A stretch of 64,000 nt of DNA. Origin: Myxococcus xanthus. GTDB lineage: Bacteria; Myxococcota; Myxococcia; Myxococcales; Myxococcaceae. The notes below the pieces were generated by a model. It was not told the origin of the DNA, did not search any database, and saw only the letters and a list, made by a program, of their open reading frames with translations. Both the position numbers and the translations under genes were made by a program. This document shows positions 5,701-25,402 of the stretch, piece after piece (position 1 is the first letter of the stretch; the number at the start of each line of letters is the position of its first letter). The stretch covers positions 5,273,001 through 5,337,000 of the forward strand of contig NZ_CP017174.1 in NCBI RefSeq assembly GCF_006402735.1, given 5' to 3'.

Positions 5701-8700
5701 CTCTCCAGCATCTGCCGCCAGCCGCCGTCATCGGCGCGCAGGCTCGGCAGCCAGGTGCCCACGCCCTCGGGCACCGAGCGCGCCGCCATGCCGAGCAGGG
5801 TCGCCTTCGGGCCGACCTCGACGAAGACGCTCATGCCGTCGCGGTACAACGCTTCCACGCCCCGGCCGAACTGCACCGGGTTGCGAAGCTGGCTGCACCA
5901 GTAGTCCGGCGTGCAGAGCCCGTCGGTGATGAGCTCGCCCGTCATCCCGGAGACCATCGGAATCGACGGCGGCGAATAACGCAGCGTCGCGGCGACGGCC
6001 CGGAACTCCTGGAGGATGGCCTCCATCATCACCGAGTGGGCCGCGCGCGGGATGTTCAGCCGCTTGACCTTGTAGCCCTTCGCGTCCAGCGCCCGGCCTA
6101 TCTCCACAATCTCCGCGGGGATGCCGGAGATGACGATGTTGTCCGGCCCGTTGACGGCCGCGATGGAGCTGGCCCAACCACCCTGGGCGAGGAACTGGCG
6201 CAGCTCCGGCTCCGCGGCGGAGACCGCGATATTGCTTCCCTCCGGAAGCTGCTGAATCAACCGGCCGCGGTGAACGGCCAGCTTCAGGCCATCCTCGACG
6301 CTGAACACGCCCGCGATGCAGGCCGCCGCCAGCTCGCCCGTGCTGTGTCCCAGCAATACGTCCGGCTGGATGCCCCACGACATCCACAGCTCGGCCAGCG
6401 CGTACTCCAACACGAAGACCACCGGCTGGGCGTAGTCGAGCTGGTCGATGGGAGATGGCGTCCCCGGCTCCGCGTAGAGGACGGAGATCAGCGAACGGTC
6501 CCAATACTCACGGAGCATCTGGTCGAACGAGTCGATGCGCCGGCGGAAGCCCGGATGCGTCTGGTACAGCTCACGCGCGGCTCCGACGTACTGCGAGCCC
6601 TGACCGGAGAACAGGAACGCGACCTTCACCGCTTGCTTCGCGTCAGCCTCTCCCTGAACGAACCCCGGGTGCTCTTCCTTCCGCTCCGCAGCGCTCAGGA
6701 CGGCGGCCACCTGCGCGGCGTCCGCGCCCACCACCGCGAGTCGGTGGTCGAAGGCAACACGGCCGGTGTTCGCGGAGAAGCACACGTCCGCGAGCGATGC
6801 GCCCGGCGCCTCGAGCACCGCCCGGTAGCGGCCCGCGAGCTGCCGCAGCGCCTCCGGGCTCCGCGACGAGAGCGCCAGGAGGTGCCGCGAGCGGTCCACT
6901 TGCTGCGCGTCCGGCGCTGGCGTCGTCTGCGGCGGCGCCTCTTCGAGGACCATGTGGGCGTTGGTGCCGCCGATGCCGAACGAACTGAGCCCCGCCCGCA
7001 GGACGCCCTGCGTCGCGGTCCACGGCCGGGCCTTGTCCACCACGTAGAAAGGCGTCTTGTGGAGCTCCAGCCGCGGGTTCGGCGACTGGTAGTGGAGCGT
7101 GGGCGGCAACGTGCGGTGCTGAAGTGCCAGCACGACCTTGATGAGCCCAGCGATGCCCGCCGCGCTGTCGAGGTGGCCGATGTTGCCCTTCACCGAGCCC
7201 AGGCCGCACGACTGCGTCTGGACCTGTCCCCCAAACGCCTCCGTCAGCGCGGAGACTTCAATGGGGTCGCCAATGGACGTTCCGGTGCCATGGGCTTCGA
7301 CATAGGAAATGGTCCGCGGGTCCACCTTCGCGTGCTGATGCGCACGGCGCACTACGTCCGTCTGGCCCTCGACGCCGGGCGCCATGAAGCCCACCTTGCG
7401 GTGCCCGTCGTTGTTGATGGCGGAGCCCTTGATGACGGCGAGCACCCGGTCTCCATCCGCCAGCGCCTGGCTCAGGCGCTTGAGGACCACGATGCCGGCG
7501 CCGCTTCCCGGAATGGTTCCGTTGGCCCCGGCGTCGAAGGGACGGCAGTGGCCGTCGCGCGAGAAGACGCTGCCTTCCTCGTACAAGTAGCCCACGCGGT
7601 GGGGGACCTTGATGGCCACGCCGCCCGCGAGCGCGAGGTCGCAGCTGCCCTCATTCAGCGCCGCGCACGCCGCGGACACCGCGACCAGGGACGTGGAGCA
7701 CGCCGTCTGGACGTTGATGCTGGGCCCGCGCAGGTCGAGCTTGTAGGACACCTGCGTGGCCAGGAAGTCCTTGTCCTGGGCCATCAGGTCCTGGAAGAAG
7801 CCGATGGGCCGCGTCAGGTCCGGATAGGGATAGCGGTAGTGGCTGACGCTCTTCCCGGCATACACGCCCACGAGCCCGTTACGCTCCGACGGCGGATAGC
7901 CCGCGTCCTCCAGCGCCTCCCAGGCGCACTCCAGGAACACCCGCTGCTGCGGATCCAACGCGCGCGCCTCGCGGGGCGTCAGCGAGAAGAACTCCGCGTC
8001 GAAGGCGTCAAAGTCCTCCATCACCGCCGACGAGCGGACGTACCCGGGATTCCGGAACGCCTCCGGACTGACACCCGCGGCCAGCAGCTCGTCATCGGTG
8101 AAGGTGCCCACCGACTCCACGCCCTGCATCAGGTTCTGCCAGAACTGCTCGGGCGTCGACGCCCCGGGGAAGCGGCAGCTCAAGCCGATGATGGCGATGT
8201 CCCGCGCATCCTGCGTCCGCGGAGTCTCCTCGCGCGGCGCGAGTGCCACCTCGGGCTTCGCCTCACCGCCCGCCGCCGCGAGCCTGGCCGCGAGCACCTT
8301 GACGGTGGGCCTGCCGAACAGGTCCGTGACGGGAACCGAAAGCCCCAGCTTCTCCTTGAGCTCGAGGTGGAGCTTGATGAGGTGTACCGAGTTGGCGCCC
8401 AGCTCGAAGAAGTTCCGGTCCGGGTGGACCTCTGGAACGCCCAGCACCTCCGCCACCGCCTTCGCGATGGACTGCTGAAGCGCCTGGGCCTCACGGCCAG
8501 GCCGGGTGGCGGCGGGCTTGCTCGCTTCGCGCTGCGTGGGCTGCGCGACGTGGTCCGGGTGCGGCAGCGCCTTGCGGTCCACCTTCGCGTTGCGGGTCAG
8601 CGGCAGCGCCTCCAACACGACGTAGGTCGATGGGACCAGGTGTTCGGGCAGCTTGCGCGACAGGAACTCGCGGACGTGCCGGGTCTCCACACCGCGCTTC

Positions 8701-11654: not shown

Positions 11655-14600
11655 AGCAGGACCCGCTTCGAATCATTGCGCTCCGAGGAGGCAGCGCCGA
11701 GCACACTGGCCACAGCGAGCTTTTCGAGAAGCTCAGCCGTCACCTGCTCGATGGAACGTTCATCGACGAAACTCTTGAGAGGCATGCTCACGTCGAGTTC
11801 GCCCAGCACCATGTCCCGCAACTCGAGCGCCATGATGGAGTCGAACCCCAGCGCGTCGAACGAGTCCGTGGACGAGAGCTTCGCCGTCGGAATCTTTCCG
11901 ACCTCGCTGACCATCTCCTTGAGACGCGCCTCCAGGACGCCACGGCGCGCGGAGCCTTCCAGCGCGAGCAACACCTCGCGCAGCTTGCGAGGCGCCTCCA
12001 CGGCGTCAGGAACGTGATCGGAGACAGAAGCGGGCCGGAACAGCGACGACGCCACGATGGAGGGATGGCTGGCGGTCCATCGCGTCACATCGAAGCGCGC
12101 GATGCCCCGGGTGACGCGGTTCTCCGCGAGCACCAGCGCCATGGACGCCAGGGCTTCGTCCACGGACATGGGCGACATGCCCCGCTCCGCCAGCCGGTCG
12201 CCACGCCGAGCATCCGCGACGGCCATGCCGACCTCGCCCCAGCTCCCCCAGTTGAGACTGAGGGCCGGCAGACCCCGTGCGCGACGGAAGTGCGCCAGCG
12301 CATCGAGAAATGCATTGGCCGCGGCGTAACTGGCCTGCCCAGGCGAGCCGATCAACGACGCCGTCGAGGAGAACAGGACGAAGTGCTCGATGGTGGTGTC
12401 GGTGGCCAGCGCATGGAGGTTCCAGGCACCGTCGACCTTGGGGCCCATGACCGTTTCAAAGTCCTGGGGCTCCCACTGCAACAACGAGCTGTCCGCCAGC
12501 ACACCCGCGCTGTGGAAGATGCCCCCCAGCGGCGCTTCGCCTCGGCGGACGGCAGCCAGCATCTCCGCCACCGACTCCGGGCGGCTCACATCGACGCGGA
12601 AGGTCTCCACCCGCGCGCCCGCCGCACGCAGCGGCACCAGGGCCTGCCGGGCCTCGTCGGTCTCGCCCTTTCTTCCACACAGGGCAAGGTGCCGCGCGCC
12701 GCGCTCCACCAGCCAGGAGGCGAGCCGCAGTCCGATTCCACCGAGCCCACCGGTAATCAGATACGTACGGTCATGCCGGGGACGAAACGCTCCCGCGCCT
12801 TCCGGAATCGTTTGTGTCTGCGTGAGCGAGGGCACCAGCCGCCGCTCGCCGCGCAGCACGACCTCGTCGTCGTCAGCGGCAGCAGGAACCTTGCGCGCCA
12901 ACTCCGTCACCAGCGCACCGAAGGCCGCGGGGTCGATGTCGATGCGCTTGCAAGCAAGCTCCGGGTGCTCGTAGGCGACGACGCGTCCCAGGCCCCACAG
13001 TGGCGCGCCAGCGATCGCCGCCGGTCCAGCCGCTTCGCCAGCGGCTTGCGCGCCCTGGGTGACGAGGAACAACCGGGGCAGCGTGGGCACCGACTGCCGC
13101 GCCAGGGTCTGCACGAGCGACGCCGCCGCGTGGACCTCTCGCTGAACCGATGTGTGCAGCCCTTCCAGTGATTCGGGGTGCTCCGAACCCGACAGGTAGA
13201 TGACGCCTCGGGGCGCCGGGCTCTCAGACAGCCACTCCCGCAGCACCGACGCCTGCTCGGGGGCCACGTTGGCCACGCGCACCGAGCCCCCGGCGGTGGA
13301 CAGGGCCTGCCGAAGCGATTCCGCGGCAGCCTGCTGCATGCTCACGATGAGCCAGCGCCCCTCCGCGTCCACGGGCTCCTGCCCCACCGTCCGCGCATGC
13401 CACGTCAGTTCGCAGAAGAGGTCCCGGGGGGATGCATCCCGGACGGTCTGCTCGCTGCTCGGCGCTGGAGCGACCTCTCCGTCCCACCAGTAGCGCTCAC
13501 GCTGCCACGGGTACGTCGGAACCACCGTCTTGCGCGTCCCCGTGAAGAGCCCCTCGAAACGAATGGAGCCTCCGGAGGAGTACCCTCCCGCGACGACGCC
13601 CAGGACACCCGTCCAGGCCTCATCACCGGGCCTGCTCGCACGCACGATGACGGCCTTGCTCCCACGGCTTCGTGCAGCGGCCTCCAACGCCTCCCCAACG
13701 GCAGCCTCACAAGAGACCTGGATGAAAGCCGAGGCGTTCCGCGCACACAGGTGCGCCACGGACGACGTCAGGTCGCTCACCGCAGCGCGCTGTCTCTCCC
13801 AGTACGCGTCCGGCACCGTGGCGCCCGCTTCGACCCAGGTGTCATCGACGGTGGAGAAGAACGGGCACTTCACGGGTTGAGGACGCACGGGCTGCGCTGG
13901 AGCCAGTTGCAAGGCGAGCCGCACGGCGTCTTCCACGCTGAGTGCTCCCGCGACCACTCCTGCCGAGAGCGCTCCCACGCCGGCTCCCGAAACAGCGGCG
14001 GGGGTCAGACCGCACGCGCGCCAGAGCTCCGCCAGCGCGAGCTGCAGCACGAGGAGAACGCCCACCGGGTGTCCTTCGCCCGCGTGCCCTCCCGCTACCT
14101 GCTCGATGACGGACCACCCCGCCACCTGCCGGAGGACCGCGTCCACCTTCTCCGCGTGGGCTCGGAAGACGTCCCGGCCCAGCAGCTCACGCATCAGCCG
14201 GTTGGCCTCGGGCTCCGTGCCACCGAAGAGGAAGACGGGCTCGCCCTCACTTGAACCTCGAGTGACACCCGGCGCATCGCGTCCCTCCGCGACAGCGTGA
14301 AGGGCCGTGCGAAGCGCCTCGGGCGTCCTCGCCACGAGCGCCGCACGGTGCGCATGGTGTGAGCGTCCAGCGCCCGCCGTGAAGCACGCATCCTGGAGCC
14401 GCGTTCCAGGTCCTGCCTCCGACACATACCGGAGCCATGACGCCGCCAGCGTGCGCAACGCCGGCTCCGAGCGCGCGGAGAGGGGCAGTACATACGGCCC
14501 GGCCTCCACGGCGGAATGGGTGGCCTCCGCGTACGCCTCGACGAGCGCATGCGCATTCACACCGCTCATCCCAAACGAGCTCACGGCGACGCGATGAGGG

Positions 14601-15916
14601 CCGTCCTTCTCCGCCAGGGACGTGCGCGCTCGAGGCACCGCGAGCCCTGAGCCCTCCCACGTGAACTCCGGGGTCGGGTGCTCAAAGTTGATGGAAGGAG
14701 GCACCTCGCCCGCCTGGAGCACCAGGACGGCCTTGATGAGTCCCGCGATGCCGGCCGCGGCCTCCGTGTGACCGATGTTCGGCTTGACGGATCCAATCCA
14801 CAGCGGGCGCTCCGAAGGCCGCGCTGCGCCATAGACGCGCGACACGCCGTCCAGCTCGATGGGATCTCCCAGCCGCGTTCCCGTCCCGTGCGCTTCCAGG
14901 TAGTCCACTTGCCCGGGCTCGATGCCCGCGCGCTGCAACACGCGCCGGTACAGCGCTTCCTGCGCCCCGACGTTCGGCACCGTGAGACCACCGCTCGCGC
15001 CGTCGTGGTTCATGCCCGTGCCGCGTAAGGTCGCGAGGATGCGGTCGCCATCCCGAACGGCGTCCCGCAGCCGCTTCAGGACGACCACGCCACAGCCTTC
15101 CCCCTGGACCATGCCGGCCGCGTCCCGGTCGAACGTGCGGCAGTGGCCGCTGGGGGACAGGGCTCCCGCCTTGGACAGGAACACGCTGAGTTGCGGCGCC
15201 AGGATGAGCTTCACGCCTCCGGCGATGGCGAGCGTCGACTCCTCCGTCCGCAGGCTCTGACACGCCAGGTGCACGGCGGACAGAGAGGACGAGCACGCGG
15301 TGTCCACCGCCATGCTCGGCCCTTCGAGCCCGAGGAGGTACGACAGCCGGCCCGCCACATAGCTGGCGTCCACACCCGTGGAGTAGTGGGCGCTCACCTT
15401 CTCCAGCCCGCCCCCCGTGACGAACGCGTAGTCCTTCGCGTGGACGCCCGCGAAGACACCGGTCCGCGTCCCCTGGAGGTGGTGCGGGGGAATGCCAGCG
15501 TCCTCCAGTGCCTCCCAGCTCACCTCCAGGAAGAAGCGCTGCTGCGGGTCCATGCCCTCGGCTTCACGCCGGGAGATGTGGAAGAACTCCGCGTCGAACC
15601 GGTCCACCTCGTCGACGAAGCCGGCGCGGCGCATGGACAGCTTCCCGGGCCTGGAGGGGTCCGGGTCATAGAGCCCCTGGAGCGCCCGCCGGTCGCTGGG
15701 AATCTCCGTCAGCGCCTCCCCTGCCCCCCACAGCAGGTCACGGAACTTCGCGGGGCTGGTGGCGCCCCCCGGAAAGCGGCAGGCCATGCCGATGATGGCA
15801 ATCGGCTCCCGCTCACCATTCGAGGCCGCGGCCAGCTTCTTCTGCAGCTTCTCGATGGTCAGCAGCGCCTGCTGGAGTGGCGACAACTCCGCCACGAATC
15901 CGTCCTTTCGGTTCAT
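11651..15916 (-). CDS. Type I PKS module KS-AT0-KR-ACP with inactive acyltransferase
   Basis: About 1421 residues. The KS is complete (Cys about 208 in TACSSS, His about 343, His about 383). The region where an AT should lie (about 560-760) aligns with one but is dead: GQGSQY is replaced by GGTEPE and GHSVGE by GAGVGA, so the nucleophilic Ser, its His neighbour and the Glu are all lost. The following stretch that would carry HAFH is also missing. A KR follows (GGLGGIG at about 1056; Ser about 1184, Tyr about 1197; LAD motif), then an ACP (LGFDSIM, Ser about 1360). There is no DH, so the module should yield a beta-hydroxy unit, with the extender supplied by another AT. ATG at 15914-15916 is preferred over GTG at 15919 because GGAGG lies 7 bases upstream. 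It overlaps the previous stop. Confidence 0.93.
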   Translation of the reverse strand: MNRKDGFVAELSPLQQALLTIEKLQKKLAAASNGEREPIAIIGMACRFPGGATSPAKFRDLLWGAGEALTEIPSDRRALQGLYDPDPSRPGKLSMRRAGFVDEVDRFDAEFFHISRREAEGMDPQQRFFLEVSWEALEDAGIPPHHLQGTRTGVFAGVHAKDYAFVTGGGLEKVSAHYSTGVDASYVAGRLSYLLGLEGPSMAVDTACSSSLSAVHLACQSLRTEESTLAIAGGVKLILAPQLSVFLSKAGALSPSGHCRTFDRDAAGMVQGEGCGVVVLKRLRDAVRDGDRILATLRGTGMNHDGASGGLTVPNVGAQEALYRRVLQRAGIEPGQVDYLEAHGTGTRLGDPIELDGVSRVYGAARPSERPLWIGSVKPNIGHTEAAAGIAGLIKAVLVLQAGEVPPSINFEHPTPEFTWEGSGLAVPRARTSLAEKDGPHRVAVSSFGMSGVNAHALVEAYAEATHSAVEAGPYVLPLSARSEPALRTLAASWLRYVSEAGPGTRLQDACFTAGAGRSHHAHRAALVARTPEALRTALHAVAEGRDAPGVTRGSSEGEPVFLFGGTEPEANRLMRELLGRDVFRAHAEKVDAVLRQVAGWSVIEQVAGGHAGEGHPVGVLLVLQLALAELWRACGLTPAAVSGAGVGALSAGVVAGALSVEDAVRLALQLAPAQPVRPQPVKCPFFSTVDDTWVEAGATVPDAYWERQRAAVSDLTSSVAHLCARNASAFIQVSCEAAVGEALEAAARSRGSKAVIVRASRPGDEAWTGVLGVVAGGYSSGGSIRFEGLFTGTRKTVVPTYPWQRERYWWDGEVAPAPSSEQTVRDASPRDLFCELTWHARTVGQEPVDAEGRWLIVSMQQAAAESLRQALSTAGGSVRVANVAPEQASVLREWLSESPAPRGVIYLSGSEHPESLEGLHTSVQREVHAAASLVQTLARQSVPTLPRLFLVTQGAQAAGEAAGPAAIAGAPLWGLGRVVAYEHPELACKRIDIDPAAFGALVTELARKVPAAADDDEVVLRGERRLVPSLTQTQTIPEGAGAFRPRHDRTYLITGGLGGIGLRLASWLVERGARHLALCGRKGETDEARQALVPLRAAGARVETFRVDVSRPESVAEMLAAVRRGEAPLGGIFHSAGVLADSSLLQWEPQDFETVMGPKVDGAWNLHALATDTTIEHFVLFSSTASLIGSPGQASYAAANAFLDALAHFRRARGLPALSLNWGSWGEVGMAVADARRGDRLAERGMSPMSVDEALASMALVLAENRVTRGIARFDVTRWTASHPSIVASSLFRPASVSDHVPDAVEAPRKLREVLLALEGSARRGVLEARLKEMVSEVGKIPTAKLSSTDSFDALGFDSIMALELRDMVLGELDVSMPLKSFVDERSIEQVTAELLEKLAVASVLGAASSERNDSKRVLL

Positions 15917-18201
15917 CACGCGACCTCCAGGCTGAGTTCCGCCAGCGTCCGGGCGATCTGCTCGCGCGCTTCGTCCTCGGACAGCCCGGCAATGCGCTCC
16001 ATCAGGCCCTGCTCCTCCTGCTCGGACGTGCTCATGTCGCCCGGGTCCGACGGCAGGCGGCCACGCCGCGCCTCCAGCAGGGACAGCAGCCGCTTCGCCA
16101 GCGGCTCCAGCCGGGGCAACTCGAAGAAGAGCGTCGTCGACAGCCGGAGCTCGAGCGCCCGCGAGATGCGCTCCTTCAGCAACGTGGCCCCAATGGAGTT
16201 CAGGCCCAGCTCGAAGAAGGTCCGCCCCTGCACATCGAGCGTCGCGGGCTCGACCTCCAGCACGTCCGCGAGGTGCCCACGCAGGAACGCCCGCATCTGG
16301 GCCTCCCCATGCACATCGGGAACGCGGGAAGCATCCCCCGCGGCCACCGCGGCGGCCTGAAGCAGGGTGGCGGCATCCGGCCGCGCGTCCTTGGGTGAGC
16401 GGCAGACTTCATCGGGTGAAAGCCACTCGGGCCACAGGCGCTGACGCTGGAAGGGGTAGACCGGCAGGCTCACGCAGCGCCCTGCACTCACCGGGAAGAC
16501 CTCGGGCGGCACGGCCCCATCCGCGACGAAGACACGGCCGGCCTCCACCTGCTTCAGCGGCATGCCCTCTTGTGCGAGGAGCGTCGTCCCACTCGACGTC
16601 GCAAGCGAATCCAGGAGCGCCACGAGCCCAGCACGGTCGCCCGCAATCACCGCGGCACGGTGACGGTGGTGCTGACGCTTGAGCGCCGCCGTGAAGCAGA
16701 TGTCCTCTAGCGTCGCCACCGAGTCCGGCGTCGCGGCGAGGAAGTCCCGAAGCTGGAGCGCTCGCTGACGAAGCGCGTCCTGAGAGAGCGCCGAGAGCAC
16801 CAGGAAATGGACCGGCGCTGGCGTCCTCTCCAGCACCGCCGCCGGAGCTGCCTCCAGGACCACGAAGCCGTTGGCACCGCCCAGGGACGTGGACACGATG
16901 CCCGCTCGCAGAGGCACGCCAGGCTCCCGAGCGGCCCAGGGCTCCAGCTCCGTCTGGATGCTCAGCCCGAGCGCGTCGAACGAAACCAGCGGGTTGGGCG
17001 CATCCACGTGAATCGTCGGCGCCAACGTGCGGTGGTGCAGAGACAGGCACACCTTGATGAACTGCGCGATGCCCGCCGCGGCGCCCAGGTACCCCACGTT
17101 GTTGCTGATGGCGCCGAGCCTGCAGGGCACCGGCCGCTGCGTCCCGAGCGCCTCCCCGATGGCCTCCGCCTCGGCCGCGTCGCCCTTGAGGAACGACGAA
17201 CCGTGCAGCTCGATGTAGTCGATGCTCGCCGGAGCCACCCCGCCCTGCTCACACGCCTGCCGGATGACGTCCGCCTGCGCCGAGGCGCTGGGCGCCATGA
17301 TCCACTCGTTCCGGCCGTTGTGATTGGCGGCGCTGCCCCGAATCACGGCGTACACGCGGTCACCGGGCTCAACCTTGGACAGGCGCTTGAGGACGACGAC
17401 GCCAGCGCCCTCCCCGCGCACGTAGCCGTCCGCCCGGGCATCCAGGGTCCGGCACTGCCCTCGCTCGGAGAACACGCCAGCCTGGGACAGCATGATGCTG
17501 CTGTCCGGCGACAGCATCAGCTCGACGCCCCCGGCGAGTGCCATCTCCACCTCGCCCAGCATCAAGCTGCGGCACGCCTCATGGAGGGCCACCGTCGAGG
17601 AGGCACACCCCACGCTCGACACGGTGCTGGGCCCTCGGAAATCAAACGCGTAGGAGAGCCGGTTGGCCGCGAAGGACGCCGTCGTTCCCAGGACGGAATA
17701 GCCATCCAGCGCGGACCAGTCCCGCGCCAGCATCCGCTGGAAGTCGCTGAAGTTGACGCCCATGAAGACGCCCGTGCGGCTTCCCCGAACGGCGTCGAAG
17801 GGCAGGCCCGCATCCTCCAGCGCATGCCATGCACACTCGAAAAGGAGACGGTGCTGCGGGTCCATCTGCCGCAGCTCCCGCTTCGACAGCCGGAACGCCG
17901 CGGGGTCGGCCAGCTCCACGCCTTCAATCAGTCCGGCCTTGCGGTTGCGAATCGTCCCGGGGCGATCAGGCGCCGCGTCGAAGAGCGCGGCCGAAGGCCA
18001 GCGCCCGGACGGGATGTCCCCCGTTGCATCAATCCCATCACATAGCATTTGCCAGAGCGTACGCGGGCAGTCCGACATGGGGAGACGCAGCCCCAGTCCA
18101 ATCACAGCAATGGGTTCACACCACATCAGAGCACGGCTCCGCTGGCGACTCGAAAGCCGCTCAGACTCATCACCTGTTTGAACTTCATTCTCAACCAACA
18201 A
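15916..18201 (-). CDS. Ketosynthase-carrier protein with degenerate KS and no AT (KS0-ACP)
   Basis: About 761 residues. The KS fold spans about 28-450. The Cys is kept (GCASS, residue 199) and the first His is kept in an altered context (ELHGSS, 333). The conserved KTNIGH is SNNVGY, which loses both the Lys and the second catalytic His (Tyr 371). The normal KS-AT linker and the post-AT linker (YPFQRQRLW, 582-590) are both present with only about 60-70 residues between them, so the AT has been deleted. A carrier domain with FFELGLNSIG (Ser 669), more PCP-like than typical ACP, ends the protein. It probably acts first among the megasynthases and may receive the starter. The start is uncertain: TTG at 18201 lies directly behind the previous gene without a clear Shine-Dalgarno, while ATG at 18126 has GGAG 10 bases upstream but begins only a few residues before the KS. 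Confidence 0.88.
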   Translation of the reverse strand: MLVENEVQTGDESERLSSRQRSRALMWCEPIAVIGLGLRLPMSDCPRTLWQMLCDGIDATGDIPSGRWPSAALFDAAPDRPGTIRNRKAGLIEGVELADPAAFRLSKRELRQMDPQHRLLFECAWHALEDAGLPFDAVRGSRTGVFMGVNFSDFQRMLARDWSALDGYSVLGTTASFAANRLSYAFDFRGPSTVSSVGCASSTVALHEACRSLMLGEVEMALAGGVELMLSPDSSIMLSQAGVFSERGQCRTLDARADGYVRGEGAGVVVLKRLSKVEPGDRVYAVIRGSAANHNGRNEWIMAPSASAQADVIRQACEQGGVAPASIDYIELHGSSFLKGDAAEAEAIGEALGTQRPVPCRLGAISNNVGYLGAAAGIAQFIKVCLSLHHRTLAPTIHVDAPNPLVSFDALGLSIQTELEPWAAREPGVPLRAGIVSTSLGGANGFVVLEAAPAAVLERTPAPVHFLVLSALSQDALRQRALQLRDFLAATPDSVATLEDICFTAALKRQHHRHRAAVIAGDRAGLVALLDSLATSSGTTLLAQEGMPLKQVEAGRVFVADGAVPPEVFPVSAGRCVSLPVYPFQRQRLWPEWLSPDEVCRSPKDARPDAATLLQAAAVAAGDASRVPDVHGEAQMRAFLRGHLADVLEVEPATLDVQGRTFFELGLNSIGATLLKERISRALELRLSTTLFFELPRLEPLAKRLLSLLEARRGRLPSDPGDMSTSEQEEQGLMERIAGLSEDEAREQIARTLAELSLEVA

Positions 18202-18204
18202 GAA

Positions 18205-20748
18205 TCAATAAAGACATACATCCGGAACATCTCTCACTGCGGCCGGCGCGGAATCTCGCGGCCCAAGGCCTCCGTCCTCCACCACGGACAGATCGCCGAA
18301 ATCGAAAAGGGCGTGCTTGTACAGCTTGAGGCGCGGACTCAATCCTTCGGGCCCCACCCGAACCGCGATGAACTTCGCGCGATCGGTCTGCATCATCCGC
18401 TCGAAGTCCCGAACGGATTGCTTCGAGGACTCGGGATACCCGAACCGGGAGATGGCTTCCAGAACCGCAGAGGTCTGGATCCCGCTGTAGATGAGGTTGA
18501 CTCGCTTGGGCTGGGATTGGGACTCGGAGGCCTCGATGGCGACCTGGGTCATCTTGTCCGCGGAGTGCTCCCAGAGCAGCGCGTTCAGCTGGCGAACCCG
18601 CTCCAGCTCCGGGGCGGACACACCCATGTCCTGGAGGAGGCGCCACAGCTCCGAGCCAGACTGAAATGGAGCTTGCTTCTCGTCGAAGCGCACCAGGTAC
18701 ATCTTGGATTCGAGCGTTCCGTCCTCCAGGAAGCTCAGTCCCAGGAACAGGGGGTAGTACTCGGTCCGCAGCGCGGAAGCGAAGGTCTTCACCCGCTCCG
18801 CGAAGGGCCCTACCCGGAAGCGCTCCGGCAGGCGGCTCATCGCCTCATCGAAGCCGGAGTGCCCGCGCATGGGGTCGAAGTGCCAGCTGGCGGCAATGGA
18901 ATACCGGGTGGGGCCTCCGGGCTTGAACTCCGCGCGCACCAGGCCCAGGTCCGATGACCGGAATGTCTCGCAGATGGCCACGGACCGCTCGACGCCCTCG
19001 TTGGAGATGCCGAGCTGACGCGTGTACTCCCGGAAGGCCTGCGTGACCGTCCCATTGTCGCTGTAGAGCATGAAGCCCAGGCCGGGCTCGTCCACGTTGT
19101 AGGAGAACTCAATCAACGCCTTCTTCGCGATGCCCAGGCCCTGCACCGGGAGCCAGTACTCCAGGAACCGCCGCACCTCGGAGGCCTCGCTCAGCAGGCC
19201 TTGGGCGCGCAGGGCATCCCGGACGAACCACCCCAGCGTCTTGTCCGGCTGCCACATCGCTTCCGTGTCGAAGTGGCAGATGCGATCACGCGGTCCAACC
19301 CGCTGAGGAGCCACCAGGTTGGCCAGCACCCGTCCCGCGTAGCGCGCTCCCAGCGCCACCCGGCTGGCGGGCCACAGTGCCTCGGTGCCCAAGCCCTTCA
19401 CGGACTTCTGCTGCCAGGCGCGCTTCGCGAGCCGCAAGGCGATGTCCGGGCGCAGGAGGAACTCCGCTCCCGCCTGGACGTGCATCAGCTTGAGGAACTC
19501 CTGGTAGATCTCCGGATGCTCGTGGTTCAGCGCGTAGAGTTCCTCCACGTACCACTGCGCCAGCTTGATGAGCCGTGTCCGCTCGCCGGGGACGTGGGGG
19601 TGCCGCATGGCCTCCGCCGTCACGAAGAACCAGAGTCCCTGGATCCACTGCGCGCCCGTGCGCAGGTACGACGCCGTCCAGGCCTGGGTCACCGCCTCCA
19701 GGCTGTCGAGCTGATGCAGCGCCTCGTTGAGGAGGTTCGCCTCCAGCATCGCCACCGACATGCCCTGGCCGAAGACGGGGTCGAAGTAGCACCACGCATC
19801 CCCCAGGACGAGCAACCCCGCGGGGAAGTCCCGGATGCGCTCGAAGTGGCGCCATTTCACGTCCGGCACCCGGTACATCTGGACGTCCGAGACGGGCTTC
19901 GCGTCCTTGATGGCTTCGTAGATGTCCGGCTCGCGGAGGCCGCGGGCGAACTCCACGAACCCGTCCTCGTCGCGGGGTGGGTGGTGTCCTTCGTAGCCGA
20001 ACAAGGACACGATCCAGCGATTGCCCTCCACGCCCTGCATCGCCCCGCCGCGTGGCGCGTCGGGCGGCAGCGGGGTGATCCACAGCCCTCGCCAGTCTCT
20101 GGCGGTCTCCGGCTGCTCGAAGAGACGTGACACGTAGCAGAGGTTGATGGGCAGCCGGCTCTCCTCCGGCGGGCTGAACCCCAACTCCGACAACCACTTT
20201 CCCAGCTGCGAACCGCGCCCGCTCGCGTCGACGACGATGTTGGCGAGCCGGTTCGTCACCGCGCCGCCGTCCCCATGGCGGTCATGCGTCTGGACACCGA
20301 GAATCCGCCTTCCATCCGGCGTGGCCAGCAGCGCCCGCACGGCGGTCGACTCCAGGATCTCCACGTTGGAATAGGCGCGAAGCCGCTCTCTCAGGTAGCG
20401 CTCCAGGGAGAAGCGTGTCTGCGGGTACAGGGTGATGCCGCTGCGGTGGCGCGGCATCCAGTCTCCAAACTGCAGCCACCGGAGGTCCTGGGTGAAGTCG
20501 AAGGGCTCGATGCCGTCTGCCTTCATCTGCTCGACGAGGCCGGGGAAGTACTGCTCCAGCAGGTCCACACCCTTTCGCAGCAGGACGTGGATGTGATTGC
20601 CCTGGGGCGCGCCCTGGCGCGGGCCGTCCTGGAGCACGTCCCGTTCAATGACGGTGACGCGCTCGAAATGGTCCGCCAGCACGCGCGCGGCGCTGAGCCC
20701 ACCAATGCTGGCGCCAATGACAATGGCGCTCCCAGGAAGTTTGTTCAT
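18205..20748 (-). CDS. FAD-dependent monooxygenase fused to an unrecognised C-terminal domain
   Basis: An 847-residue protein. Residues 1-470 are a class A flavin monooxygenase: a dinucleotide-binding start (VIGASIGGL, 10-18), DASGRG at 174-179 and the second FAD motif GDAWCYFDPVFGQGM at 316-330. There is no WxWxIP motif, so it is not a tryptophan-halogenase type. Residues about 480-847 form a separate domain I do not recognise. It contains three similar beta-hairpin segments (601-622, 668-689, 792-812), each ending in a basic-aromatic strand such as SKMYLV or RLKLY, loosely like ABBA-type aromatic prenyltransferases; that link is only a guess. ATG 20748 is chosen because the FAD motif follows at once and GAGG/GGGA precede it; a TTG nine codons upstream is possible. 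It likely oxidises or otherwise tailors the polyketide. Confidence 0.85.
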   Translation of the reverse strand: MNKLPGSAIVIGASIGGLSAARVLADHFERVTVIERDVLQDGPRQGAPQGNHIHVLLRKGVDLLEQYFPGLVEQMKADGIEPFDFTQDLRWLQFGDWMPRHRSGITLYPQTRFSLERYLRERLRAYSNVEILESTAVRALLATPDGRRILGVQTHDRHGDGGAVTNRLANIVVDASGRGSQLGKWLSELGFSPPEESRLPINLCYVSRLFEQPETARDWRGLWITPLPPDAPRGGAMQGVEGNRWIVSLFGYEGHHPPRDEDGFVEFARGLREPDIYEAIKDAKPVSDVQMYRVPDVKWRHFERIRDFPAGLLVLGDAWCYFDPVFGQGMSVAMLEANLLNEALHQLDSLEAVTQAWTASYLRTGAQWIQGLWFFVTAEAMRHPHVPGERTRLIKLAQWYVEELYALNHEHPEIYQEFLKLMHVQAGAEFLLRPDIALRLAKRAWQQKSVKGLGTEALWPASRVALGARYAGRVLANLVAPQRVGPRDRICHFDTEAMWQPDKTLGWFVRDALRAQGLLSEASEVRRFLEYWLPVQGLGIAKKALIEFSYNVDEPGLGFMLYSDNGTVTQAFREYTRQLGISNEGVERSVAICETFRSSDLGLVRAEFKPGGPTRYSIAASWHFDPMRGHSGFDEAMSRLPERFRVGPFAERVKTFASALRTEYYPLFLGLSFLEDGTLESKMYLVRFDEKQAPFQSGSELWRLLQDMGVSAPELERVRQLNALLWEHSADKMTQVAIEASESQSQPKRVNLIYSGIQTSAVLEAISRFGYPESSKQSVRDFERMMQTDRAKFIAVRVGPEGLSPRLKLYKHALFDFGDLSVVEDGGLGPRDSAPAAVRDVPDVCLY

Positions 20749-20800
20749 GCCGTGTCCCGCCTCTTGCAGCGTCAACGCTCGGGTTGCTCGCGGAAGCCGT

Positions 20801-22186
20801 TCAGGCCGCCGCCTGCTGTCCGGTCAGGTGCGCCAGGATGAGGTCGTGGACTTGCGTGGCGTGGAGTGTATCTGCCTCGATCAGTTCGCCATGTCGTGTC
20901 ATCAGCACCGGCCCATCCTCCGGGCCGGTGGGCAGGCCATGCGCCCCTTTGAGGAGGGAGCCGTCCATCGAGACGACCTCCAGTCGCGATCGCACGCCCA
21001 GCATCTCCTTCACGACACTGCCCCCCAGTTCCAGCATTCGCAGACCGAGCTTCGGGTCCACGAACATCTCCAGCGGGTCGTAGCCCGGCTTGCGGTAGAT
21101 ATCGACGGTCCGCGCGTAGTCCGGCGCACGCGCATCATCGAGCCAGTAGAAGTACGTGAACCAGGCATCCGGTTCAGCCAGGGCCACCAGTTCGCCGGAG
21201 CGTGGGTGGTCCAGATGGTGGGTGCGCTTGCCCTCGGCATCGAGCACCTGGGCCACCCCGGGCTCCGCCTCGACCAGCGCCTTGACCTCGTCCAGGAGCG
21301 CCGGGTTCCGGACGTAGATGTGCGCGATCTGCATGTCCGCGACGGCGAACGCCTCACTGCCGCTGGGATAGACGACGTCACGGCCGCCCTCCTCCCGAAT
21401 CGCCAGCCACCCTCGGCGGCGGAAGAGGCGGTTCAGGTGGACGGCCCGGGACACGGGGACCGCGCCGAACTCCGAGAGGATGATGACGCGCACGCCGCGC
21501 GACTCATAGAAGCCAATCAGCTTCCCGACGACGTCGTCGAGCTCGCGAAGGCTCTTGTGGATCTCCTTCGCGTCCGGTCCAAACGTGTGCGGCGTGTAGT
21601 CCAGGTGCGGCAGGAAGACGAGCGAGAGCGTGGGGCTGTGCCGCTGCTCCAGCCACATGGCGACGTCGGCGATCCACTCCGAGGAGCGGATGCTGTAGCG
21701 GGGCCCCCAGTAGTCATACGCGGGGAAGTTCCCCAACGCCTCGACGAGCGGCTTGCGCAGGTGGAGCGGCTCCGTGAACACGTCTGGCAGCACCCGCCCG
21801 TCCGCGGTGAAGGACGGCTGCGGCGTGATGGCGTAGTCCGCCTTCGAATACATGTTCATGAACCAGCACACGCGGGCGCAGGTGAAGCTGGGGTCGAGCT
21901 TGCGGGCGGCATCCCAGAGCTGCGGCGTCTGCACGAGCCCGTCGGACTGGGGCCAGAAGCGGACCTCTCCCAGCTCCCGGTTGAGCCATCCATCTCCGAC
22001 GATTCCGTGCTCGCTGGGGTATCTTCCGGTCAGGAACGTCGCCTGCATGGTGCAGTTCAGCGCCGGCAGGACGGGCTGGAGCGGCACCATGCGCCCCCGC
22101 TCCACGAATGCCTGCATGTTTGGCGTCGAGGGGCCGACAAACCTCGCGCTCAATCCAGGCAAGTCCAAAACGACGCAACGTTCCAT
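20801..22186 (-). CDS. Type I phosphodiesterase/nucleotide pyrophosphatase-family protein
   Basis: About 461 residues of the alkaline-phosphatase superfamily. It starts with a metal-binding strand (VVLDLPGL). The nucleophile region ALNCTMQATFLTGRYP supplies the Thr, followed by HGIVGDGW. DxxxH and G appear in LDYTPHTFG. The usual SDHG zinc motif reads SEFG, so one Asp is conservatively changed and a His is lost. A late His-rich segment (KRTHHLDHPRSGEL) is present. The family cleaves phosphomonoesters or phosphodiesters; the substrate here is unknown. The start at ATG 22186 fits the family N-terminus, although no strong Shine-Dalgarno is seen. It is the first minus-strand gene of the cluster, 52 bases before the monooxygenase, and is divergent from the acyl-CoA dehydrogenase gene. 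Confidence 0.85.
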   Translation of the reverse strand: MERCVVLDLPGLSARFVGPSTPNMQAFVERGRMVPLQPVLPALNCTMQATFLTGRYPSEHGIVGDGWLNRELGEVRFWPQSDGLVQTPQLWDAARKLDPSFTCARVCWFMNMYSKADYAITPQPSFTADGRVLPDVFTEPLHLRKPLVEALGNFPAYDYWGPRYSIRSSEWIADVAMWLEQRHSPTLSLVFLPHLDYTPHTFGPDAKEIHKSLRELDDVVGKLIGFYESRGVRVIILSEFGAVPVSRAVHLNRLFRRRGWLAIREEGGRDVVYPSGSEAFAVADMQIAHIYVRNPALLDEVKALVEAEPGVAQVLDAEGKRTHHLDHPRSGELVALAEPDAWFTYFYWLDDARAPDYARTVDIYRKPGYDPLEMFVDPKLGLRMLELGGSVVKEMLGVRSRLEVVSMDGSLLKGAHGLPTGPEDGPVLMTRHGELIEADTLHATQVHDLILAHLTGQQAAA

Positions 22187-22751
22187 GCCCGAAGCAAACT
22201 GCCCACGAGCAAACCAGTCAATCACCGACCAGGTTGTCCCATACCCTGGTCTGAGATGAGTGTTTAGCCACTTCAACCAGGTCAGCCGCGTGTAGAATTT
22301 TACCGCGGCCATAGGCTGGAAAGCACTGACGCGAGCGCTCGCGCCTGGAATGAGTGACACCGCACCCAGTGCACTGGGTAGTGAAACGAAACGGAATACA
22401 TGGTCTGGAGGGGCGGGTCAGGGGTGCGCGGCCGGCCTTCGTGACCACGTCCTCCGCGGCGGCGAAAAACCGCGCCCAGGCCCACTTGTAACTCATTGAG
22501 TCCACCCCGGGCCAGACCCACCAGATAGGAATTGAAGCCCCCCGCGCATCAATCCCATCCAGCATCACCCCAAAAGACACACTTGCCGACGACCATCCCG
22601 GAGGTTCTTGACGGCTCGTTCCCACGCACGCGAGACTTCGCCTGACGCCTTTCACGTCTCACCATCCATCTCCGAGGGTCATACCGCGCGAGCGCAAGGC
22701 GTTCGAAGCGCGCCCCCTCGTTGCTGTCACCCGTTGGAACACCAGGAAAAC
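22187..22751. promoter_or_regulatory. Divergent intergenic region of the biosynthetic cluster
   Basis: A 565-base stretch without a convincing gene separates the minus-strand phosphodiesterase/PKS operon from the plus-strand dehydrogenase/ligase operon. It must hold both promoters. Visible signals are a 16-base perfect palindrome at 22364-22379, a 12-base palindrome GCGAGCGCTCGC at 22331-22342, and AGGA just before the ATG at 22752. Open frames reaching into it from both genes look like artificial N-terminal extensions. No clear -35/-10 pair could be assigned. Confidence 0.6.
22364..22379. promoter_or_regulatory. Perfect 16-bp palindrome, candidate operator
   Basis: ACCCAGTGCACTGGGT is a perfect inverted repeat with no spacer, 178 bases before the phosphodiesterase start and 372 bases before the dehydrogenase start. 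Size and symmetry suit a dimeric repressor or activator. The regulator is not encoded in the visible part of the cluster. The function is inferred from position only. Confidence 0.5.
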
Positions 22752-23891
22752 ATGGACTTCAGTTGGACTCACGAGCAGGTGGAGCTCTATGACCGTGCCC
22801 TCGCCTTCGCGCGAGCGCAGTTGCCCGAGGCCGCAAAGCCCAGCAAGGAAGTGCTGCCACGCGACTTGTGGCAGCGCTGTGGTGAATTCGGCTTCCTGGG
22901 GCTGCCCGTGCCAGCGGCGCATGGCGGACTGGGGCTGGACACGCTGACCACGGCGCGGGTGATGGAAGCGCTGGGGCGCGGCTGCGTGGACACCGGACTG
23001 GTGTTCTCCGTGGGAGCTCACCTCTTCGCCTGCGTGATGCCCATCCTGGAGAGCGGGGATGACGCGCAGAAGTCCCGGTACCTGCCCCGCCTCTGCTCAG
23101 GGGAATGGGTGGGCGCCAACGCCATCTCCGAACCGGAAGCGGGATCGGATGTGTTTGCCCTGAAGACGCGCGCGGTGCGGGACGGCGACAGCTACGTGCT
23201 CGACGGAGGCAAGAGCTACGTCACCAATGGCCCTTCCGCGGACGTCTTCCTCGTCTATGCCGCCACGCAGCCTGCCCATGGGTACATGGGCCTGAGCGCC
23301 TTCCTCGTCGAGAAGGACACGCCGGGACTGTCCGTCGGGCGCGCCTTCGAGAAGATGGGGCTGTCCACGTCGCCCATCGCCCCCATCTACCTGGAGGGGT
23401 GCCGTGTCCCGGAGTCCGCGCGGCTGGGTGCGGAGGGACAGGGCGCGGCGCTCTTCAAGCGCTCCATGCAGTGGGAGCGCGCATGCCTCTTCGCCGCCTA
23501 CGTGGGCGTCATGGAGCGCGTGCTCGAACAGACGGCGGACTTCGCCCGGACCCGCAAGCAGTTCAAGAAGGCCCTGGGGAAGAACCAGGCCATCTCCCAC
23601 AAGCTGGCGGACATGAAGCAGCGGCTGGAGGCATCCCGGCTGCTGCTGTACCAGGCCTGCTGGAAGATGGACCGAGGCCTGGACGCCGTCATGGAAGTGT
23701 CCCTGGCCAAGCTGGCCATCAGCGAGGCCGCCATCCAGAGCGGCCTGGACGCCATCCAGATTCACGGCGGCATGGGCTACGTGGCCGAAACGGGCATCGA
23801 GCGCGTGCTGCGTGACGCCATTCCCAGCGCCATCTTCTCCGGCACCTCCGAAATCCAACGCGACATCATCGCCAACCAGCTCGGCCTATGA
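22752..23891 (+). CDS. Acyl-CoA dehydrogenase-like flavoenzyme, probable prolyl-carrier-protein oxidase
   Basis: A 379-residue acyl-CoA dehydrogenase fold. It has the FAD/substrate signature NAISEPEAGSD, the segment MQWERACLFAAYVG, the ARTRKQF region and the C-terminal FSGTSEIQRDIIANQL. Length, start (MDFSW) and the ERACLFAA segment resemble PltE-type enzymes, which oxidise prolyl-S-PCP to pyrrole-2-carboxyl-S-PCP. That role is supported by the next gene, a prolyl-AMP ligase-like enzyme that overlaps it by 4 bases. ATG 22752 is chosen over the longer frame because AGGA precedes it and the family N-terminus starts here. Without the neighbour, an acyl-ACP dehydrogenase for another extender unit would be an alternative. 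Confidence 0.92.
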   Translation: MDFSWTHEQVELYDRALAFARAQLPEAAKPSKEVLPRDLWQRCGEFGFLGLPVPAAHGGLGLDTLTTARVMEALGRGCVDTGLVFSVGAHLFACVMPILESGDDAQKSRYLPRLCSGEWVGANAISEPEAGSDVFALKTRAVRDGDSYVLDGGKSYVTNGPSADVFLVYAATQPAHGYMGLSAFLVEKDTPGLSVGRAFEKMGLSTSPIAPIYLEGCRVPESARLGAEGQGAALFKRSMQWERACLFAAYVGVMERVLEQTADFARTRKQFKKALGKNQAISHKLADMKQRLEASRLLLYQACWKMDRGLDAVMEVSLAKLAISEAAIQSGLDAIQIHGGMGYVAETGIERVLRDAIPSAIFSGTSEIQRDIIANQLGL

Positions 23892-25402
23892 CACTCGACC
23901 AAATCGTCATCCGTGCAGCGGCGAAGGCTCCCGAGTCCATCGCCATCAAGGGTCCCGACGGGACACTCACCTACGGCCAGTTGGACGCGCTCGCCAACCG
24001 CATCGCCCGCGCGCTCCAGGAGCTGGGCGTGAAGCAGGGAGACCGCGTGGGGCTGTGGACAGAGAAGTCCGTGCGCGCCGTCGCCGCGATGCAGGGCATT
24101 GCCCGGCTGGGCGCCGCCTACGTCCCCCTGGACCCGCTGAACCCCGCGACGCGGACGCGGCTCATCCTCGACGACTGCGGCATCGACGTGATGGTGACCA
24201 CCACCACGCGCGCCTCCGAACTCCACAACGCGGGCATGAGCCGGCTGCGCTACCTGCTGGTGGACGACAAGGGGCCAGAGATCTGCTGGAACCGGCTGTG
24301 CGGTTTTTCGTCCGAGCCGCTGCCGCCGCACGGCTCGGGCGACCACGACCTGGCGTACATCCTCTACACGTCCGGCTCCACGGGAACGCCCAAGGGCGTG
24401 TGCATCAGCCAGCGGAACGCGATGGCCTTCATCGAGTGGTGCCATGCGCTGCTGGGCACCACGCCGGAGGACCGCTTCAGCAACCACGCGCCGTTCTTCT
24501 TCGACCTCTCGGTGCTGGACCTGTACGCGGCCTTCATGGGTGGCGCGTCCGTCACGCTCATCCCGGAGGCGCTGGCCTTCGCGCCGGAGAAGCTGGTGGA
24601 GCTGGTCCTCCGCGAGCGGTTCACCTGTTGGTACTCGGTGCCTTCGGCGCTGATGCTGATGATGCAGGAAGGCGGTCTGCTGAAGCATGGGGCGCTGCCC
24701 TTCCGCGCCGTGCTCTTCGCGGGCGAGCCGTTCCCCATCCGGCACCTGCGCCCGCTTCGTGAGCACCTGCGGCAGGCGCGGTTCTTCAACCTCTATGGAC
24801 CCACGGAGACCAACGTCTGCACCTTCCATGAGGTGACGGACATTTCGCCCCACCGCACCGAGCCGGTGCCCATTGGCCGAGCGAGCTGTGGCAACCGCGT
24901 GTGGTTGGCCCGGCCGCCGCCGGACTCAGAGGAAGCGCGGGAGGAAGGCGACGGCGTGGGCGAGCTGATGGTGGAGGGCCCCACGGTGATGCTGGGCTAC
25001 TGGGGCCAGCCGCGCCACGGGAGCGGGCCGTATGCCACGGGGGACCGCTGCCGCGAGCTGCCGGACGGCACGTTCGAATACCTGGGCCGCCGCGACAACA
25101 TGCTGAAGGTGCGCGGGCGCCGCATCGAAGCGGGCGAAATCGAAGCGGCGCTGCTCACGCACCCGGACATCCGCGAGGCGGGCGTGATCTCCACCGGCTC
25201 CGGCCTGGAAGCGCGGCTGGTGGCCTTCGTGGTCAGCGGCGCCAGCAAGCCCCCTTCCCTGCTCAAGGTGAAGAAGCACTGCGCGGAGCGGTTGCCTCGC
25301 TACATGATTGTCGACGAGGTCCGCGTGCTGCCCGAGCTGCCCCGGACTCCCAACGGCAAGCTCAACCGGCGCGCACTGAGGGAACTGACGCAGGCGCCTT
25401 GA
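23888..25402 (+). CDS. Stand-alone adenylation enzyme, L-prolyl-AMP ligase type
   Basis: A 504-residue ANL-family ligase. Motifs run in order: YILYTSGSTGTPKG (A3), FFFDLSVLDLY (A4), NLYGPTETN (A5), ATGDR (A7), GRRDNMLKVRGRRIE (A8) and NGKLNRR with the catalytic Lys (A10). Reading the pocket by alignment to GrsA gives D-L-L-Y-L-A-L-V-C, the code of the prolyl-AMP ligases of pyrrole pathways such as PltF and RedM. It should activate L-proline and load a carrier protein, where the upstream flavoenzyme makes the pyrrole. No free-standing PCP lies next to it. Its ATG overlaps the upstream stop (ATGA), so the two are translationally coupled. Confidence 0.92.
   Translation: MTLDQIVIRAAAKAPESIAIKGPDGTLTYGQLDALANRIARALQELGVKQGDRVGLWTEKSVRAVAAMQGIARLGAAYVPLDPLNPATRTRLILDDCGIDVMVTTTTRASELHNAGMSRLRYLLVDDKGPEICWNRLCGFSSEPLPPHGSGDHDLAYILYTSGSTGTPKGVCISQRNAMAFIEWCHALLGTTPEDRFSNHAPFFFDLSVLDLYAAFMGGASVTLIPEALAFAPEKLVELVLRERFTCWYSVPSALMLMMQEGGLLKHGALPFRAVLFAGEPFPIRHLRPLREHLRQARFFNLYGPTETNVCTFHEVTDISPHRTEPVPIGRASCGNRVWLARPPPDSEEAREEGDGVGELMVEGPTVMLGYWGQPRHGSGPYATGDRCRELPDGTFEYLGRRDNMLKVRGRRIEAGEIEAALLTHPDIREAGVISTGSGLEARLVAFVVSGASKPPSLLKVKKHCAERLPRYMIVDEVRVLPELPRTPNGKLNRRALRELTQAP

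Follow-up and report, generated by a model that had tools for sequence, protein, structure and literature searches.

In the stretch of the Myxococcus xanthus genome analysed here (the window; 64,000 nucleotides of contig NZ_CP017174.1, positions 5,273,001 to 5,337,000 of the forward strand), one reading frame joins a flavin monooxygenase to a C-terminal portion of about 365 residues. The locus raises the question of what kind of domain this portion forms and what it could add to the pathway in which the gene lies. The original prediction, made from the letters of the sequence, described the portion as a domain without a known family. It placed the end of the monooxygenase near residue 470, pointed out three similar hairpins with basic-aromatic strands in the remainder, and proposed a PT-barrel (ABBA prenyltransferase-like) fold. 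Structure prediction and fold search were named as the means of examining it, and a plain extension of the monooxygenase as the outcome that would speak against it.

The fusion gene and its flavin half

The gene can be divided as follows:

18205-20775, minus strand: fusion gene, one open frame, 856 aa from a TTG start
19366..20775, minus strand: MonCI/LasC-type FAD monooxygenase (epoxidase) part, residues ~1-470, assigned from Pfam, the PDB and stand-alone homologues
18205..19365, minus strand: C-terminal linker and predicted PT-barrel (ABBA-like) domain, residues ~471-856, assigned from AlphaFold2, Foldseek, VIA-align and selection

An in-frame ATG at 20748, nine codons after the TTG, would yield a protein of 847 aa and is likely to be the true start. 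Within the flavin part, Pfam detects FAD_binding_3 (4.6e-08), and comparison with PDB sequences returns the polyether epoxidases MonCI (E 4.7e-51) and LasC/Lsd18 (E 5.1e-50), aligned over residues 12-357. The assignment of residues ~12-450 to a MonCI/LasC-type flavin epoxidase, which would be predicted to epoxidize an alkene with FAD, is well supported by these sequence matches. The solved MonCI and LasC chains, at 488-512 aa, are too short to contain a C-terminal barrel of the kind predicted in the 856-aa fusion. Their substrates are polyether precursors rather than pyrrolyl-polyenes.

Matches of some kind to the flavin part are present in all 27 genomes of the genus, Myxococcus, that were examined. 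The fused gene is present in nine of them, seven of which have a stand-alone flavin homologue as well; among the 18 genomes lacking the fusion, 14 contain a stand-alone homologue and four only a short match to the FAD motif. The stand-alone homologues (n=21) are 36-42% identical to the flavin part and lie in frames 470-548 aa long; their matches extend no further than query residue ~441-457. Thus, the last ~400 residues of the fusion are an added part, and the boundary that had been placed near residue 470 agrees with these end points as well as with the MonCI/LasC alignment. The shared reading frame is what would be expected if the C-terminal region were simply a plain extension of the monooxygenase. 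However, the 21 homologues stop at the flavin domain, and the region that follows has the length of a whole domain and, as described below, a repeat topology of its own; a plain extension is thus very improbable.

Each of the nine copies of the fusion in the genus occupies an open frame of 857-900 aa, and the match is free of stops, which argues that the frame is a gene rather than a chance ORF. Both halves are under purifying selection. In comparisons of the window copy with 8 homologues by the Nei-Gojobori method, the C-terminal part has a dN/dS of 0.16-0.35 and the flavin part one of 0.12-0.26. The protein ends with the tail DVCLY (18205-18222), which follows a variable linker; these last five residues, including the conserved C-terminal cysteine, are identical in all nine copies. 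The fusion gene is also present, at 82% identity, in a record titled 'Comamonas sp. KCTC 72670' (L024). This title looks wrong, since genome G024, which has the same match coordinates, is placed in the genus of the window.

Sequence searches and predicted fold of the C-terminal domain

Searches of the C-terminal ~365 residues against Pfam and NCBIfam yield only a weak, below-cut-off match to an RNA methyltransferase. Searches of PDB sequences with phmmer and hmmsearch find no prenyltransferase and return one chance match, a DNA-repair protein (E 0.19). The claim of a domain outside the known families, carried in one 856-aa chain with an FAD monooxygenase, thus holds. The profiles PF11991 (Trp_DMAT) and PF11468 (PTase_Orf2) do not match the fusion protein at E <= 10, and their curated cut-offs are not reached. 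In searches of its own genome neither profile finds the fusion; the one match to PF11991, at another locus, is weak (E 0.135). When the C-terminal family, which is almost without diversity (Neff 1.17), is compared by hhalign with myxobacterial Trp_DMAT sequences, the alignment is out of register and its probability is 0.6 %. Since profile comparison finds nothing, the domain is not to be filed under PF11991 or PF11468.

Across the phylum, full-length matches are found in 9 of 195 genomes. A single scan of contigs with two short patterns, which is a weak test of absence outside the genus, recovers only four close relatives, and a search of plasmids for relatives gives no match. Short fragments in 16 more of the 195 genomes (E 0.001-0.74) were treated as chance. 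In one of these, a stretch of 44 aa at 41% identity on contig C451 of genome G029 (E 0.002-0.007), the frame contains many stops upstream, and no flavin part is adjacent.

The first AlphaFold2 model was built from five sequences, those of the window and of L021-L024, whose rows are 82-94% identical to the first. Its confidence is low (pLDDT 55.4, pTM 0.56). It consists of five successive beta-beta-alpha-alpha units, whose ten strands, spanning residues 553-819, pair up into five hairpins separated by helices. The strands named in the original prediction are present in this model, where TRYSIAAS, ESKMYLV and SPRLKLY each form the second strand of a hairpin (hairpins 2, 3 and 5, respectively); the number of hairpins, however, is five rather than three. 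Comparison of the model with the PDB by Foldseek gives 38 matches at E <= 0.001, the best at E 3.4e-05, and ABBA prenyltransferases make up 50 of 50 among the matches listed. These include AmbP3, AmbP1, FAMD1, NphB, CloQ, EpzP, CymD, DMATS1, KgpF and LimF. TM scores among the matches listed are 0.45-0.57 by target and 0.35-0.47 by query. Structural alignment with VIA-align finds 122 chains at Z >= 8, the top match having a Z of 13.1 and an rmsd of 5.1 over 287 residues; again, 50 of 50 among the matches listed are PT-barrel enzymes.

For a second model, the homologue placed first was the most diverged among the four that could be used; it was trimmed and is 83% identical over the trimmed region. 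This model has a pLDDT of 59.6, and repeat 1 is not formed. With Foldseek, PT-barrel proteins account for 50 of 50 among the matches listed (best E 9.7e-05, 4 at E <= 0.001, TM 0.2-0.36). The best Z obtained with VIA-align is only 6.8, and among the matches listed 42 of 50 are prenyltransferases and 8 of 50 are unrelated.

The low pLDDT, the shallow alignment of five closely similar rows, the weakness of the second model and the lack of profile similarity would all be expected if the domain were not a PT-barrel and the AlphaFold model were only a look-alike. Such an artefact is nevertheless improbable, since two models from different but related sequences arrive at one uncommon fold, with 150 of 150 and 42 of 50 among the matches listed. 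We take a PT-barrel to be the likely, though still predicted, fold of the C-terminal domain. What had been proposed about the fold is borne out by the predicted topology and the fold searches, but not by any sequence or profile link to prenyltransferase families.

Several strands of the predicted barrel carry residues that we take to be of the prenyltransferase type, such residues in DMATS enzymes binding diphosphate. The candidates are the glutamate in ALIEFSY (strand 1a), the arginine in TRYSIAAS (2b), K-x-Y in ESKMYL (3b), the arginine and asparagine in KRVNLIY, and R-x-K-x-Y in PRLKLYK (5b). These candidates are invariant in 8 aligned copies, all of which share at least 82% identity with the window copy. 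The catalytic glutamate of DMATS enzymes lies on the first strand. The candidates were compared with Trp_DMAT sequences and with known active sites by eye; in this comparison, the position that presumably corresponds to the first diphosphate-binding arginine of DMATS enzymes is not basic in the fusion.

The fusion gene within the probable DKxanthene cluster

The genes surrounding the fusion are as follows:

2736..11654, minus strand: hybrid NRPS/PKS (dkxG by gene count; Pfam)
11651..15919, minus strand: KS-(partial AT)-KR-ACP polyketide synthase (dkxF by gene count; Pfam)
15916..18201, minus strand: KS-ACP protein (dkxE by gene count; Pfam)
20801..22360, minus strand: phosphodiesterase (gene C) of the type I phosphodiesterase/nucleotide pyrophosphatase family (PF01663, 1.2e-56)
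22752..23891, plus strand: prolyl-carrier-protein dehydrogenase for a pyrrole starter (dkxB by gene count; NCBIfam PigA equivalog)
23888..25402, plus strand: stand-alone amino-acid adenylating enzyme (dkxA by gene count; NCBIfam TIGR01733 above cut-off, Pfam)

The phosphodiesterase gene lies 25 nt upstream of the fusion gene, and dkxE starts 3 nt past the fusion stop. By Pfam, the product of dkxG contains TubC docking, condensation-type, A, PCP, KS, AT, DH, KR and ACP domains. Its condensation-type domain bears, as read in the translation, the heterocyclisation-like motif DGTFIDGYS. The match of dkxB to the PigA equivalog scores 507.3 bits, above the cut-off of 500, and begins at residue 49 of the ORF at 22608-23891; the dkxA adenylating enzyme is presumably specific for proline. 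Beyond dkxG there are two PKS proteins, extending outside the window, followed by an NRPS with a terminal thioesterase (Pfam on one PKS and on the NRPS).

According to PMC3986340, dkxG is MXAN_4299 and the dkx cluster comprises MXAN_4289-4305. If the adenylating enzyme is counted as A, the hybrid comes seventh (G); the fusion would come fourth, as D, or MXAN_4302. Given the PigA-type dehydrogenase above its cut-off, the order of the NRPS/PKS genes, the terminal NRPS with its thioesterase and the identity of dkxG as MXAN_4299, the fusion very probably belongs to the cluster for the yellow pigment DKxanthene. The window has the same gene content, gene order and pyrrole starter as the known cluster (BGC0000986). 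DKxanthenes are described in PMC4902038 as made up of asparagine, a polyene, an oxazoline and a pyrrole, with variation in chain length and methyl branching, and the pyrrole-starter genes and the NRPS/PKS set fit this make-up. A prenyl group is absent from that description, and the congener numbers given in PMC11619377 and PMC10649082 (520, 534, 560 and 574) do not differ from one another by a prenyl unit. Among the nine cluster proteins scanned with Pfam, none is a prenyl-diphosphate synthase.

The DKxanthene cluster is reported in Myxococcus and Stigmatella (PMC12766979), and DKxanthene-type clusters like that of the window are common to Myxococcus and further genera of the family. Matches to the window's first 540 residues of dkxG at 74% identity or above occur in the nine fusion carriers and in 14 other genomes of the family, giving at least 23 of 96, a count that is a lower bound, as up to 15 candidates were scored per genome. 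Within the genus, at least 17 of 27 genomes have a match reaching 74%. All Myxococcus species are stated to carry the cluster and M. stipitatus to make DKxanthenes (PMC13218925); the genus as used here may be wider than the genus in that source.

The upstream 20 kb was read for 13 of the 14 dkx loci lacking the fusion, G058 being left out because the end of its contig is too near. Each of these 13 loci contains A (75-83%), B (79-87%), E (61-70%) and F (56-68%), with the matched starts of B and E 129-314 bp apart. They differ from the window in that the phosphodiesterase and fusion genes are both absent from all 13. The best matches to the C-terminal domain in these loci (E 0.007 and 0.016) were taken as chance. 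The phosphodiesterase gene itself occurs in 10 of the 96 family genomes, namely the nine fusion carriers and one with a partial match. This partial relative (L117:2-1066, minus strand), which is 52% identical, belongs to another genus of the family and is cut by the end of its contig.

Because both genes are missing from the 13 other loci and the phosphodiesterase is nearly confined to fusion carriers, it is well supported that the phosphodiesterase and fusion genes are a two-gene insertion between dkxB and dkxE, heading the dkxE-G operon. At 0.65-0.67, the GC content of the insertion resembles that of dkxB (0.667) and is slightly lower than in the adjacent PKS genes (0.69); thus, recent import is not clearly indicated. 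Since the cluster is ascribed to all Myxococcus species, and M. stipitatus is said to make DKxanthenes, in PMC13218925, the pair is probably not required for the core DKxanthene pathway.

Possible roles of the fusion protein

The reading that we prefer is that the DKxanthene pathway of the Myxococcus xanthus group has acquired a two-domain tailoring enzyme in which a flavin epoxidase is joined to a prenyl-transferring PT-barrel. As a whole this reading is tentative, falling just short of probable. The anatomy and context of the fusion are highly likely to be as given here; prenyl transfer by the C-terminal domain is possible and somewhat doubtful. In such an enzyme, the PT-barrel would bind the polyene at the pyrrole or oxazoline end, beside an allylic diphosphate, which the basic and tyrosine residues of the strands may hold. 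The pyrrole is an electron-rich ring of the sort that PT-barrel relatives would be expected to hold. The barrel would attach an allyl group in a side branch of the pathway that is minor or conditional, and the flavin domain would oxygenate an alkene belonging either to the polyene of DKxanthene or to the group added by its partner domain. A more specific version, in which a single-chain flavin epoxidase-prenyltransferase of an as yet unrecognised and highly diverged ABBA family prenylates the pyrrole or asparagine end of DKxanthene and epoxidizes the product, is distinctly doubtful.

Since the described DKxanthenes lack a prenyl group, the domain would represent a prenylation step that has escaped detection or else a PT-barrel put to another use. 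If repurposed, the barrel would be real but no longer prenylate; it would bind or dock the pyrrolyl-polyene, free or carrier-bound, for the flavin domain, and the protein would be a DKxanthene oxygenase. This alternative would reconcile the prenyl-free DKxanthenes described in PMC4902038 with the presence of the gene in M. xanthus-type genomes. It also fits the constraint on both halves and the one expected basic strand residue that, by eye, seems to be missing. However, several strands keep basic and tyrosine residues, like those of prenyltransferase active sites, and we know of no PT-barrel protein with a purely binding role, which also counts against it. On balance, a barrel that only binds is a real possibility that is itself on the doubtful side.

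Whether as an epoxidase-prenyltransferase or as an oxygenase with a binding barrel, the protein departs from the systems that it resembles. The ABBA prenyltransferases (AmbP3, AtaPT, CymD, NphB and the DMATS enzymes) share the five units predicted in the fusion domain, but the latter has no detected sequence similarity to them, sits behind a flavin monooxygenase, and belongs to a pathway whose described products are without prenyl groups. Each half is of a known kind; what is new, to our knowledge, is their fusion, along with the divergence in sequence and the pathway. Among the papers listed in searches for prenyltransferase-oxygenase fusions, none names a flavin-ABBA fusion.

If the domain is active, the ABBA prenyltransferases would include a further sequence family and have both a new fusion partner and a substrate of a new kind; unseen DKxanthenes would also be predicted in a genetically tractable model organism. 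If the epoxidase-prenyltransferase reading is true, prenylated, oxygenated DKxanthenes would have been overlooked in the best-studied myxobacterium. If the domain is inactive, a PT-barrel would have been reused outside prenylation, which would itself be unusual.

The Myxococcaceae also contain Trp_DMAT-haem-oxygenase-like fusions (L028-L042), in which a PT-barrel domain is again joined to a putative oxygen-activating domain. These differ from the fusion described above in that they are bona fide members of PF11991, their partner is PF14518 rather than a flavoprotein, and no profile link connects them to the fusion domain. They are proteins of 588-665 aa from other genera of the family, with a PF14518 domain above cut-off in 4 of 10 scanned. 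Both domain orders appear to exist: DMATS precedes the oxygenase-like domain in L032, L036, L038 and L042, and the order is reversed in L028, L029, L031 and L041. The N-terminal domain of ~240 aa in the reverse-order four shows homology to the C-terminal region of L033 (E about 4e-32 when searched in a tiny database), which in turn matches PF14518 only below the cut-off. A profile of six DMATS domains from the Trp_DMAT fusion loci matches PDB DMATS at 8.5e-71. Prenyltransferases of the PTase_Orf2 type (PF11468; L044-L048) are found, in frames of 299-333 aa, in 5 of the 195 genomes; four of these are further members of the window's genus, and the fifth comes from a different genus of the family.
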